This document shows positions 24,557 through 56,996 of a stretch of DNA of 64,000 nt, piece by piece. Position 1 is the stretch's first letter; every line of letters begins with the position of its first letter. The position numbers and the translations under genes were made by a program. Source of the DNA: Kribbella sp. ALI-6-A (lineage in GTDB: Bacteria; Actinomycetota; Actinomycetes; Propionibacteriales; Kribbellaceae); NCBI RefSeq assembly GCF_001984195.1, contig NZ_MTQN01000010.1:806001-870000 (forward strand), in the 5' to 3' direction. The notes under the pieces are model-generated. The model had not been told where the DNA came from, made no database searches, and saw only the letters and a program-made list of their open reading frames with translations.

Positions 24557-24708
24557 GATCGTCGGACGCGCCGGCTGCTGGGGGAGTGGTTGGCGCGTCA
24601 GGTCTGGGCGAAGGCGAGCAGGATCGTCTCTGACCGATGCAAGAGCGGTATGGCAGGCATGCTGGAGAGTCGTTGGTGCCCGCTGAGAAGCCTGTCTACG
24701 TTGGGTTT

Positions 24709-25234
24709 ATGGACACCAACAGCAAGGTGGCGTTCCTCGCGATGGGAGCGATGGGGGCGCCGGGTGCGGGCGGTGGTGGGGAAGATCGCCGGGGAGTTGG
24801 AGGCTGAGCGGTACTGGTCGACGTGTCGTCGATCGGGCCGGAGGCCGTGCGGGAGGTCGCGGGGTTTTGCCGGACGGCGTGACGTTAATCGATGCGCCGG
24901 TGATGGGAAGTGTCGACAAAGCGGCTCGCGGTGAGCTGACCTTGTTCGTGGGTGGGGACGCCGATGCGGTGATGCCGTTGCTCGAGACCTTTGGGACGGT
25001 ACGGCGTACCGGCGCGCTCGGATCAGGGGCGGCGTTGGGCGGGCTGCGGCCGAAGGTGCGTACTACCAGGTCAAGCTAGCCGCGAAGGATGTGGCGCTGG
25101 CTGCGGGTGCTGCCGAGTTGCTGATTGCTCGCGCGGTGCACGAGCGGCTGACGGCGTACCCGGACGCGGCCGGCGAGGACATCGGTCAGATCGTCAAGCA
25201 CTTCAGAGCATCGGCGTCGGATCGCCCGGTCTGA
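24709..25234 (+). pseudogene. Decayed beta-hydroxyacid dehydrogenase-like gene
   Basis: Remains of an NAD(P)-binding 6-phosphogluconate/3-hydroxyisobutyrate dehydrogenase-like protein, spread over several frames. The dinucleotide motif start (KVAFLAMGAMGAP) is at 24709-24762 and then breaks off. LVDVSSIGPEAVREVAG follows near 24812-24866, ending in stops. The next piece, DGVTLIDAPVMGSVDKAARG through LTLFVGGD, is at about 24870-25020. The C-terminal KLAAKDVALAAGAAELL through the TGA at 25234 is in another frame. The middle of the protein, including most of the Rossmann domain, is deleted. At least three disruptions, so not a single sequencing error. It overlaps the end of the convergent kinase gene by 32 bases. 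Confidence 0.85.
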
Positions 25235-25691
25235 CCCGTACGGCGTACTCGTCGGGAGCCGGTGGTTCGAAGGTCGCGAGGTGCTCTTCCAGTACGGCGT
25301 CCGAGACGTCGCGCCGGTGCTGGTTCGTCTGGTTGGCCGCTCGGCGCCGGCGGATCGTGGCGTGGTCGACGTCCAGGTAGACGAGACGAAACCCGGCACC
25401 GAGGTTGGCCGCGAGAGCCCGCCAGCCGTCCCGGAGAAAGCGGAGCGAGCTGGTGTCGTCGAGGATCACGCTCGTCCCGGAGGCGAGGTGTTCGCGGACC
25501 TCGTTGGTGGCGATGGCGTGAGTGGCCTTCCATTGCTCGACCGGGATGCCGTCGCCGCCCCACAGGCCGCGGCGTTCGTTGATCTCGTCGAGGCTGACGA
25601 TCCGCGCGTCGAGTTGGCGGGCCAGGTCGGCGGCCAGCGTGCTCTTGCCGGAGTACGCCGTGCCGCAGAGCACGACCAGTCGAGGGCTCAT
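25203..25691 (-). CDS. P-loop kinase-like ATPase
   Basis: Small AAA/kinase-type P-loop protein of 162 aa. Walker A is GTAYSGKST (residues 10-18). An acidic strand follows (VILDDTSSLRFLRDGW), then an LYLDVDH-like Walker-B region and the lid arginines (IRRRRAANQTN). It resembles bacterial predicted kinases with a zeta-toxin-like fold. No antitoxin gene is adjacent. The start is uncertain: ATG 25691 has no clear ribosome site and a TTG at 25703 is in frame. Phosphate acceptor unknown. Confidence 0.72.
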   Translation of the reverse strand: MSPRLVVLCGTAYSGKSTLAADLARQLDARIVSLDEINERRGLWGGDGIPVEQWKATHAIATNEVREHLASGTSVILDDTSSLRFLRDGWRALAANLGAGFRLVYLDVDHATIRRRRAANQTNQHRRDVSDAVLEEHLATFEPPAPDEYAVRVRPGDPTPML

Positions 25692-53748: not shown

Positions 53749-53953
53749 AGGTCCTCCCCCCCCACTGCTCACGCCCGGTGGTTGCGGTGCGTGTCTGGAA
53801 CGCTACAAGGGCCTACCGACAGAAAGTGGGGCAGTGGCTCCCACGCAGCCCCAACGAGTGGCTGGTGGCTGTGGGCTGTTTGGAGAGCCCACAGATCACA
53901 CCTGGTAGGGCAAGTGACCGGTGGTGAAGCTTGCTGGTGTGGACCGACAGGGG

Positions 53954-54361
53954 ATGACGCAGCAGGGGCCGCCGCGCGCCTTCTGGCTGGTGCGGTCCGA
54001 CGGTGGTGGCGCGGTGGCGGAAGGGGTGCTGTGGGCGGATGGGGTGGTGGCCGTGCGGTGGTGTGGGCAGGGGACCGCTGTCTCGGTGTGGTCGGGCGGA
54101 CTGGACGCGTTGCTCGCCGGGCACGGCCGGGACGGCAGTACCGAGGTGCGGTGGAGCGAGGGACGGGCGACACAACGGGCCCGCGACGAGCCAACGGAGC
54201 GGCGTACGGGCGAGGCAGCGGAGCGGCGTACGGACGAGCCGGCGGAGCGACCGGCGGAGCGACCGGTTGGGCGGCCGGGCCCGTACCTGCCCGCTCCCGG
54301 CGCGGACGGGCGCTGCGTGCGGTGCGTGCAATGGTGGCCCTGCCTGCAGTGCGGGTTGTGA
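53954..54361 (+). CDS. Uncharacterised protein with paired CxxC tail
   Basis: Protein of 135 aa, unrecognised. The first 65 residues are a beta-rich domain (FWLVRSDGGGAVAEGVLWADGVVAVRW, ending TEVRW). Next is an Arg/Glu/Pro repeat linker (AERRTDEPAERPAERPVGRPG) encoded by short tandem repeats (about 54187-54268). The last residues hold CVRC-x5-CLQC, a likely zinc or redox site. The start is uncertain: the frame opens at GTG 53921, and no clear ribosome site marks either. Divergent from the XRE gene. Confidence 0.55.
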   Translation: MTQQGPPRAFWLVRSDGGGAVAEGVLWADGVVAVRWCGQGTAVSVWSGGLDALLAGHGRDGSTEVRWSEGRATQRARDEPTERRTGEAAERRTDEPAERPAERPVGRPGPYLPAPGADGRCVRCVQWWPCLQCGL

Positions 54362-54442
54362 CGAGACGCCGCTGCCGGGCGGCGGGGCCGCGGTTTACTC
54401 TGAGCTGTTCGATCGATCGTGCACGATATCGGGAGTGTGGCG

Positions 54443-55221
54443 GTGCAGGGAGAAGTGGAGGGGCCGGCGCAGCCGGCGACCAGCGCCGATCCGCTCGACG
54501 AGCTCGACACCCAGCTGGCTCGGCTGCGCAGCGTGGCCGACGAGCTGCGGGGCGCCCGGGGCAAGCCGGTGCTCAGCGGCAACCAGGTGGAGCTCATCGA
54601 GGACGGGCCGACCCTGCTGCGGGCCTACGAGCAGCTGCAGGAGAACGCGACCCGTGAGGTCCGGGTGCTGGACCGCCCGCCGTACGTGACGCCGCCGTCG
54701 ACGCAGCAGGCGCTGGAGCTGGAGCGGCTGCACGCGGGGGTGACCTATCGGGCGATCTACGGCACCGAGGTGTTCGAGAGCGAGGACATCATGGGGGTCC
54801 TGCCCGAGCTACAGACCGCAGGGGAACGCAGCCGCGTGCTCGCGCAGGTGCCGCTGAAGATGGCGGTGGGCGACGACGACACCGCGCTGATCGGGCTGAC
54901 CAAGCGGTCGCCGTCGGAGCAGCATCGGCTGATCCGGTCGTCGGGGCTGCTGGACGGACTGATCGCGACGTTCGAGATGCTCTGGGCGCTGGCGGTCCCG
55001 ATGCCGGCGCTGCCGTTCGACGGTGACTTCGCCGGTCTGCGGCCGCACGACCGTGACGTGCTCCTGCTGCTGGCCGGCGGCGCGACCGACGACATGATCA
55101 GCCGCCGGCTCCGGATCAGCCCCCGGACGACGCAGCGCCGGGTTCGCGCGCTGATGGAGTCGCTCGGCGCCCAGACCGGTTCCAGGCCGGCGTTCAGGCA
55201 GCCCGCCGCCGCTGGCTCTGA
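54443..55221 (+). pseudogene. LuxR-type regulator, frameshifted near its 3' end
   Basis: TrmB/LuxR-type regulator. Residues to about 190 are a TrmB-like sensor (YEQLQENATREVRVLDRPPYV, GVTYRAIYGTEVFE), followed by a LuxR helix-turn-helix (LRPHDRDVLLLLAGGATDDMISRRLRISPRTTQRRVRALMESLGAQT). One C appears missing at 55176-55177. With it restored the protein ends RFQAGVQAARRRWL and stops at 55219-55221, the normal family end. As written, the frame reads on without a stop into the MFS gene (to 56515). GTG 54443 is seven bases from GGGAG; 54419 is the alternative. Confidence 0.75.
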
Positions 55222-55285
55222 GCAGCGTGACGGAGATCACCCGACCAGCTGGATAGCATTTCGCTACTCAGGTGTTCAGATCAGC

Positions 55286-56515
55286 ATGAGCACTCTTCAA
55301 CTTCCGGTCGCCATCGCGCGCCACAGGAAAACCCGGGCCCTGAGTCGCCGGGCCAGCTTCTGGACGGCAGCCGCCGTTGCGGCGGTCAGTCTGTGGACCA
55401 GCGCGGCGCCGACCACGACGTACCCGCTCTACGCCTCCACGTGGATGCTGTCGCCGACCGCCACCACCGCGATCTTCGCGGTCTACCCGGTGGTCCTGGT
55501 GGCCTTCCTCCTCGTCTTCGGTCAGGTCTCCGACTACATCGGCCGCCGTGCCACGATGCTGTACGGCGTCGGCGCCATGCTGCTCGGAGTCCTGCTCTTC
55601 GCCGTCGCCCCCTCGGTCGGCTGGGTGTACGCCGGCCGCGCGCTGATGGGCGCCGGTGTCGGTCTCGCCCTGACGGCGGCCACCGCGGCAGCGGTCGAGT
55701 TCAGCGCCGAAGGCCGGGCCTCCCGCGCCTCCTCGGTCGTCACCGCGTCGACCGCGGCCGGTCTGGCCCTGGCCACGATCGTCGGCGGCGGCCTGGTCCA
55801 GTACGCCCCGCTCCCGCTGCACCTGGACTTCTGGGTGCTGCTCGGCGTGCTCGTCGTCGTGCTCGGCTTCGTCTGGCGGCTACCCCCGCACACCAGGGAC
55901 GAGAGCCGCGGCAAGTGGCGCCCGCGTCCGATCGTCGTACCGAAAGGCATCCGGGTCCTGTACGCCGGCGCCGCCGCGGCCGTGACCACGGCGTACGCGT
56001 TCGGTTCGGTGTTCTTGGCGCTGGGAGCCGAGATCGCCCAGCAGCTGATCGGCACCTCGAACATCTTCACCATCGGCCTGATCCTGTCGATCACCTCGGT
56101 GATGATCGGCGTGACCGCGATCCTCGCCCGCCGCTTCCCGCCCCGCCAGCTGGTGCTGGTCGGTGCCGTCATCACGCTGGTCGGCCTGGCCCTGCTCGAG
56201 TACTCGGCCCAGGCGCACTCCCTGCCGGTCTTCCTCGTCACCACCGGGCTGAGCGGTGTGGCGTACGGTCTGCTGTTCTCCGGAGGCCTCGGCCTGATCA
56301 ACGCGCACGCCCCGGCTCACCACCGAGGCGGGACGGTTGCCGCGGTCTACCTGGTCGCCTATGTCCTGCAGGGCGCCATCGCGCTGACGCTGGGTATCGT
56401 GGCGACGGCCTCGGGCCTGAGCACGGCGCTGCTGCTCGGCACGATCCTGATCGGTTCCCTGGGGCTGCTCGTGCTCACGGTCGTGGGCGTCGCCCCGGCG
56501 TTGCACAGGAGTTGA
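55286..56515 (+). CDS. MFS transporter (drug-efflux type)
   Basis: MFS protein of 409 aa with about 12 helices. ASFWTAAAVAAVSLWTSAAPTTTYPLYA forms helix 1 and GQVSDYIGRRATMLYG is motif A. ATG 55286 follows the restored stop of the LuxR-like gene by 64 bases. A HxlR regulator gene starts one base after its stop, so transporter and regulator are co-transcribed. Efflux of a toxic compound sensed by HxlR is the likely role. As the sequence stands this frame is continuous with the regulator upstream. Confidence 0.85.
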   Translation: MSTLQLPVAIARHRKTRALSRRASFWTAAAVAAVSLWTSAAPTTTYPLYASTWMLSPTATTAIFAVYPVVLVAFLLVFGQVSDYIGRRATMLYGVGAMLLGVLLFAVAPSVGWVYAGRALMGAGVGLALTAATAAAVEFSAEGRASRASSVVTASTAAGLALATIVGGGLVQYAPLPLHLDFWVLLGVLVVVLGFVWRLPPHTRDESRGKWRPRPIVVPKGIRVLYAGAAAAVTTAYAFGSVFLALGAEIAQQLIGTSNIFTIGLILSITSVMIGVTAILARRFPPRQLVLVGAVITLVGLALLEYSAQAHSLPVFLVTTGLSGVAYGLLFSGGLGLINAHAPAHHRGGTVAAVYLVAYVLQGAIALTLGIVATASGLSTALLLGTILIGSLGLLVLTVVGVAPALHRS

Positions 56516-56516
56516 G

Positions 56517-56996
56517 ATGACGCAGACGAAGGCCACCACCGAGCCGCACTGCTCGATCGCCCGAACGGTGAACATCGTCGGCGACCGCTGGGCCTTCCTG
56601 ATCCTGCGCGAAGCGCATGTCGGCGCCACCAGGTTCGCCGAGTTCCGCGACGTGCTCGGCATCGCGCCGAACATCCTGACCAGTCGCCTGGCCACGTTGG
56701 TCGACGCGGGCATCCTGGAAAAGCGCGAGTACCGGGACGCCGGGGAGCGCGCCAGGTCGTCGTACCACCTGACGCAGGCCGGCCAGGACCTGAAGATCGT
56801 GCTGGCCGCGTTGCAGCAGTGGGGTGACGAGCACGTCCCGCCGGCCGAAGGGCCGACCGTGCGCCGGCGCGACACCCGGACCGGTGAACTCATCTCGGTC
56901 GGTTTCGTCGACAAGTCCGGCGCCGCCGTACCGGAGGACGAGGTCGTGTTCGAGCCGGTGCCGGGCGGCCGGGCTGATCGCAGCACCTGGCGGTGA
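56517..56996 (+). CDS. HxlR-family regulator
   Basis: Winged-helix regulator of 159 aa. It has the HxlR start CSIARTVNIVGDRWAFLILREAHVGATRFAEFRDVLGIAPNILTSRLATLVDAGILEKREY and the wing RSSYHLTQAGQDL. HxlR proteins sense electrophiles or oxidative stress through cysteines; Cys near residue 12 (PHCSI) is the only clear one. Its tail extends about 50 residues past the usual end. Likely controls the MFS gene just upstream. Confidence 0.9.
   Translation: MTQTKATTEPHCSIARTVNIVGDRWAFLILREAHVGATRFAEFRDVLGIAPNILTSRLATLVDAGILEKREYRDAGERARSSYHLTQAGQDLKIVLAALQQWGDEHVPPAEGPTVRRRDTRTGELISVGFVDKSGAAVPEDEVVFEPVPGGRADRSTWR

Follow-up and report, generated by a model that had tools for sequence, protein, structure and literature searches.

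Actinobacterial one-component regulators of the GerE/LuxR type carry a helix-turn-helix (HTH) near the C-terminus, and the last HTH helix of GerE proteins serves dimerisation. The regulator gene described here resembles them in the position of its HTH and in that the DNA still holds the TRFQAGVQAARRRW(I/L) ending; unlike theirs, its last 14 codons lie out of frame. Its GerE score falls below the Pfam cut-off, which is also true of both orthologues tested.

A second described arrangement is that of a major facilitator superfamily (MFS) transporter gene with an adjacent gene for an HxlR-type regulator. The same pair in the same order is found here and at 9 of 11 transporter loci of named genomes, including six from Kribbella and one from Microbacterium. 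Unlike most MFS-HxlR loci, the present one sits behind the GerE/LuxR-like gene and has a short transporter leader without a second inverted repeat, a property shared with the genus genome G030.

The join between the two genes can also be compared with frameshifts that occur in one genome only. According to the available text of a frame-transition survey (PMC3711429), single cases confirmed by homology are expected to be sequencing errors and not genuine indels; the same text reports more frameshifts at the 3′-ends of genes and suggests that single cases located there are more often real indels. The case presented here is like these singletons as they appear in that text, since it is limited to one genome among those searched, confirmed by homology and close to a 3′-end. 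It is unlike them in that the shifted frame happens to open into the next gene.

The open frame and the missing base

The window, by which we mean the whole 64-kb stretch of DNA analysed, belongs to an 8.1 Mb genome in 12 contigs (G000), which is the one genome of its species among those searched. As the initial annotation had stated, a frame without stops runs from the regulator to the end of the transporter, from a GTG at 54419 to 56515 (698 codons), a later codon such as that at 54443 being another candidate for the start of the regulator. A Pfam profile search of the 698-residue translation gave a weak GerE match at residues 211-251 (E 0.0043, under the curated cut-off) and an MFS_1 match at residues 320-647 (E 3.8e-32), which covers positions 4-339 of the 347 in the profile and so spans the length of an MFS protein. 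The HTH is less complete: of the 57 profile positions, the GerE match reaches the 47th in the window and the 53rd in two orthologues. The features of the region are collected in Table 1.

Table 1. Features of the region joining the regulator and transporter genes (positions in the window)
Feature	Position	Strand	Basis and remarks
GerE/LuxR-like HTH regulator	54419..55174	+	Intact up to the base loss; weak GerE match below cut-off; orthologues in 17/37 other genomes
Site of missing base, ACCGG against three C in relatives	55175..55179	+	Three C in 17/17 orthologues; 14 codons before the usual stop
Regulator tail RFQAGVQAARRRWL with its stop codon, displaced from the regulator frame	55177..55221	+	Translation; tail kept in 17/17 orthologues; differences mostly silent in the old frame
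GTGA-N6-TCAC dyad GTGACGGAGATCAC	55227..55240	+	Aligned with similar dyads upstream of the relatives' MFS gene
Operator-like inverted repeat CTGGATAGCATTTCGCTACTCAG = CTGGATAGC-ATTTC-GCTACTCAG	55249..55271	+	Putative site of the HxlR-type regulator
MFS transporter, 409 aa, own ATG	55286..56515	+	MFS_1; several homologues align from the start residue; dN/dS 0.19-0.35
HxlR-type regulator, partner gene of the transporter	56517..56996	+	HxlR, E 1.9e-18 (Pfam); match 3′ of the transporter in relatives

The initial annotation ascribed the joined frame to the loss of one C and the displacement of the regulator tail, a diagnosis that the orthologues from the genus back. The sequence at the site is ACCCGG in 16 of the 17 and ACCCGC in the remaining one (L013), so that all have three C, and the window has two. 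The tail had been called the typical end of such regulators, and it is: with its stop it is present in every orthologue in the form TRFQAG(V/L/I)QAARRRWI*, the final I replacing the last L of the window and two orthologues showing one other change. Only the start of the alternative frame has to be corrected, since it begins at 55177 and the 55178 given earlier is one base late. A tail of the TRFQ- or SRLQ-type also closes each of the six paralogues read in the same genome.

Comparison of the tail DNA with that of G003 reveals three silent differences and one amino-acid change in the old frame, against one silent difference and three amino-acid changes in the new one. Read in the old frame, the tail differs by one amino acid from 15 of the 17 relatives and by two from the other two. 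Upstream of the base loss the dN/dS of the regulator versus G003 is 0.17, indicative of purifying selection. Judged by these substitutions, the displaced DNA still looks selected in its old frame, from which it would follow that the base was lost very recently or is missing through a sequence error. Purifying selection on the regulator, taken together with the undecayed tail, suggests that the regulator worked until very recently, or still works.

Regulator and transporter in the genus

Thirty-eight genomes of the genus were searched, our own included (a family-level search gave the same 38), with thresholds of E ≤ 1e-60 for the regulator and E ≤ 1e-80 for the transporter. The regulator was detected in 18 of these, our own among them. 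When the whole 698-residue frame served as query, regulator and transporter matched separately in the relatives, and none of the 17 orthologues read at the locus (0/17) is fused to a transporter. An uninterrupted fused frame in close relatives, which according to the initial annotation would point to a deliberate fusion, was thus sought and is absent in all 17.

The transporter was detected in 14 of the 38 genomes, the matches in G014 and G017 being only 46-47% identical. In 11 of the 14 it and the regulator are on different contigs or lie megabases apart, which shows that the pairing is not obligatory. It sits behind the regulator in three genomes (G000, G003 and G011), and among the flanks of the 17 relatives it is those of G003 and G011 that share the regulator-MFS-HxlR order with the window, the HxlR-type match after the transporter being partial in both and cut by the end of the locus. 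The neighbour of the regulator in 15 of the 17 relatives is an S8 protease gene, and the fetched 1.5 kb flanks there contain no transporter match. A plasmid search yielded nothing covering 80% of the query and no record with at least 60% identity; the best 5 of 90 records were all MFS proteins.

On the other side of the regulator, at 53921-54361, is a 146-aa frame without a Pfam match. It is matched upstream of the regulator in 17/17 relatives with approximately 32-65% identity over the matched pieces, and it adjoins a divergent gene that is likewise matched in the relatives.

The transporter is under purifying selection, with dN/dS values of 0.19-0.35 against 11 homologues (two distant ones excluded). 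The value versus G003 is 0.35; since G003 itself gives 0.16-0.27 in comparisons with ten others, constraint on the copy in the window may be slightly relaxed. More than 20% of actinobacterial genes are leaderless according to the available text of one report (PMC3160421), which makes a leaderless start at 55286 plausible. Judging from the sequence, the transporter probably starts at this ATG from its own, leaderless message.

The DNA between the two genes

Leaders were aligned from the 14 genus transporter loci and from nine of the 11 loci of named genomes (L074 and L077 were left out); six of the nine duplicate loci among those 14, the leaders of the six Kribbella loci being identical to those of six genus genomes, which identifies the genus as Kribbella. 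The linker between regulator and transporter aligns with the transporter leaders of the relatives, including those of genomes that have the regulator elsewhere. It is as transporter-leader DNA that the linker aligns, and it is not conserved as protein.

With the two distant ones excluded, the genus leaders contain a GTGA-N6-TCAC-like dyad as well as a repeat built as CTG-NN-TTGC-N5-GCAA-NN-CAG, both with variations, and in most of those aligned a second repeat and a start signal rich in purines come after the first repeat. The dyad of the window, which we take to be CRP-like in shape, may be an activator site. In the repeat of the window the two arms differ from the usual ones in a matching way, with TAGC/GCTA for TTGC/GCAA. 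Neither a second repeat nor a purine-rich start signal is present in the leader of the window; that of G030 (L149) is likewise short, and in both the ATG follows 14 bases after the repeat. For this reason we dropped the proposal that the short leader reflects a transporter that has lost its start signals and depends on the fusion. Since the leader of the window is short and has no purine-rich signal, it is by inference that we assign the transporter an independent start.

The operator-like pattern matches once in the 64-kb window and in none of 100 shuffles. Ten of the 38 genomes have one copy each of a strict version, which was drawn up from these same leaders and so depends on them; the copy is always on the same strand as the transporter and at most about 75 bases upstream of its aligned start. 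The strict version is found in 0/24 genomes without the transporter, and a backward-pattern control gave 0/38; it is also absent from four of the 14 transporter genomes (G014, G017, G030 and G034). The locus therefore combines an HxlR gene adjoining the transporter with a dyad conserved in the leader (strict pattern in 10/14), as an HxlR-controlled operon should. An exact search of 55220-55290 for inverted repeats with 6-base arms listed only CCAGCTGG, the operator-like repeat being missed because its arms are interrupted.

We infer that the HxlR-type protein binds the repeat at 55249-55271, and regard the repeat as a candidate operator; a by-product of this analysis is therefore a candidate operator for the HxlR-type regulator of an MFS transporter in Kribbella. 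A narrow literature search, which is a weak guide, found nothing on an HxlR operator associated with an MFS transporter, nor on a LuxR-MFS fusion in Kribbella. Because the operator-like site accompanies the transporter in other genomes, the transporter and its HxlR-type neighbour most likely make up a separate operon, with a promoter and a start site that belong to it, and because such a site lies between the two genes a separate transporter is to be expected even if the base loss is real. The gain of a regulator-transporter fusion, raised as a possibility in the initial annotation, is unsupported, as the intervening DNA contains an operator-like site that is tied to the transporter elsewhere.

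Origin of the missing base

The apparent fusion is most likely an ordinary single-base difference, due to an error or to a very recent mutation. We assign a probability of about 0.92 to a recent mutation or sequence error beside an independent MFS-HxlR operon, with no deliberate fusion. There would then be two adjacent transcription units, one with the GerE/LuxR-like regulator gene and the other an operon of the MFS and HxlR genes that has a promoter and an operator to itself. Near the end of the regulator one C is absent, through an assembly error or because a single base was deleted very recently, and the last 14 codons would thereby be shifted into a frame that would be open into the transporter by chance. 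A real loss would remove part of the last HTH helix and probably weaken the regulator. Production of the transporter would go on normally, accompanied at most by some fusion protein arising from read-through.

The open join itself needs no special explanation: the 36 codons from 55178 to the transporter ATG remain open in 9581 of 20000 first-order resamples of the stretch, and in G003, whose regulator stops normally, this shifted frame likewise runs on through the transporter without a stop; in G011 it closes after 16 codons. The G003 frame, open from the regulator tail onward, would suit programmed ribosomal frameshifting between the frames of the regulator and the transporter, the shifted form having become fixed in the window; that G011, the third genome with this gene order, has a closed frame, and that roughly half of such stretches are open by chance, make this explanation extremely improbable. 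We also consider it very unlikely that the fusion is deliberate, creating a regulator anchored in the membrane, with the transporter carrying its DNA-binding part. The N-terminus of MFS proteins is on the cytoplasmic side, where it would suit a DNA-binding domain, the frame is open, and the transporter leader is short and without the purine-rich start signal of most relatives. Against this, the HTH has lost its end, judging by the GerE match, and the linker persists at the DNA level ahead of the transporter in genomes whose regulator lies at another place. We rejected a deliberate fusion because the relatives are unfused and the linker is transporter leader DNA with an operator-like repeat. 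Very little probability, too, is left for a real and fixed loss that yields a membrane-tethered regulator-MFS fusion beside or instead of the free transporter, the operon having come under the regulator promoter after shortening of the leader. On present evidence, the 698-residue fusion protein should not be annotated here as functional.

As to whether the single-base difference is an error or a mutation, we took a census of frameshifts in approximately 788 kb of our own genome compared with 660 kb of G003 and 540 kb of G037, in which 296/506 genes of G003 and 269/422 of G037 had a match with at least 60% identity. The first set of candidates on our own genome comprised nine rows in seven regions, all seven of which were aligned, and genes of the relatives placed on our own genome gave ten candidate rows, again all aligned. 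Our own genes placed on G003 or G037 gave 13 rows; these, together with two more genes of the first set, were judged by alignment, two-piece dN/dS or a third genome. The regulator is the only clean single-base coding frameshift assignable to our own genome in the approximately 788 kb, in a census limited to genes with a match of 60% identity or more, which requires 20 or more residues on either side of the break and misses a loss as near the gene end as that of the regulator unless the frame enters the next gene. Elsewhere, one clean frameshift belongs to G003 (the S8 protease gene) and two to G037 (own_203 and own_438, where G003 agrees with our own genome); own_36 was compared with G037 only and is credited to neither genome. 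Apart from one decayed gene in our own genome, the remaining candidate rows are gene boundaries or differences of more than one base. These assignments hold outside eight rows of G003 versus G037 and outside region 142, which was aligned and has a 104-base difference. The census favours neither error nor mutation strongly.

Within the preferred reading of a single-base difference, there is an even chance that the C went missing in sequencing or assembly and that the regulator of the strain is normal. The tail has kept its old-frame selection, its conserved residues and its stop, as expected for a working gene, and an error is what the available text of PMC3711429 leads one to expect of single cases confirmed by homology. 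However, the run consists of three C only and is no long homopolymer, and no second such frameshift was assigned to our own genome in the census, so errors of that kind are not common here. A real and recent loss, which would have truncated the last helix of the regulator and added a chance extension, is a serious possibility, at somewhat under even odds. It agrees with the few frame breaks in the compared part, and the position of the site 14 codons from the gene end fits the suggestion on 3′-ends in that same text; the tail is undecayed, however, which a real loss would allow only if it were very young.

Two further observations concern the compared genomes. In the S8 protease gene of G003, which adjoins the same locus at about 190771 of contig C2, one C is short in an ACCCGG context relative to the window, and G037 agrees with the window; the two cases in this context, one in the regulator of the window and one in the G003 protease, may be a coincidence or a shared type of error. 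The window also contains a decayed gene at approximately 24700-25400 (about 24.8 kb), which shows several indels in comparison with an intact homologue in G003; that homologue matches PF03446 with E 3.4e-33 and is an NAD-binding dehydrogenase.
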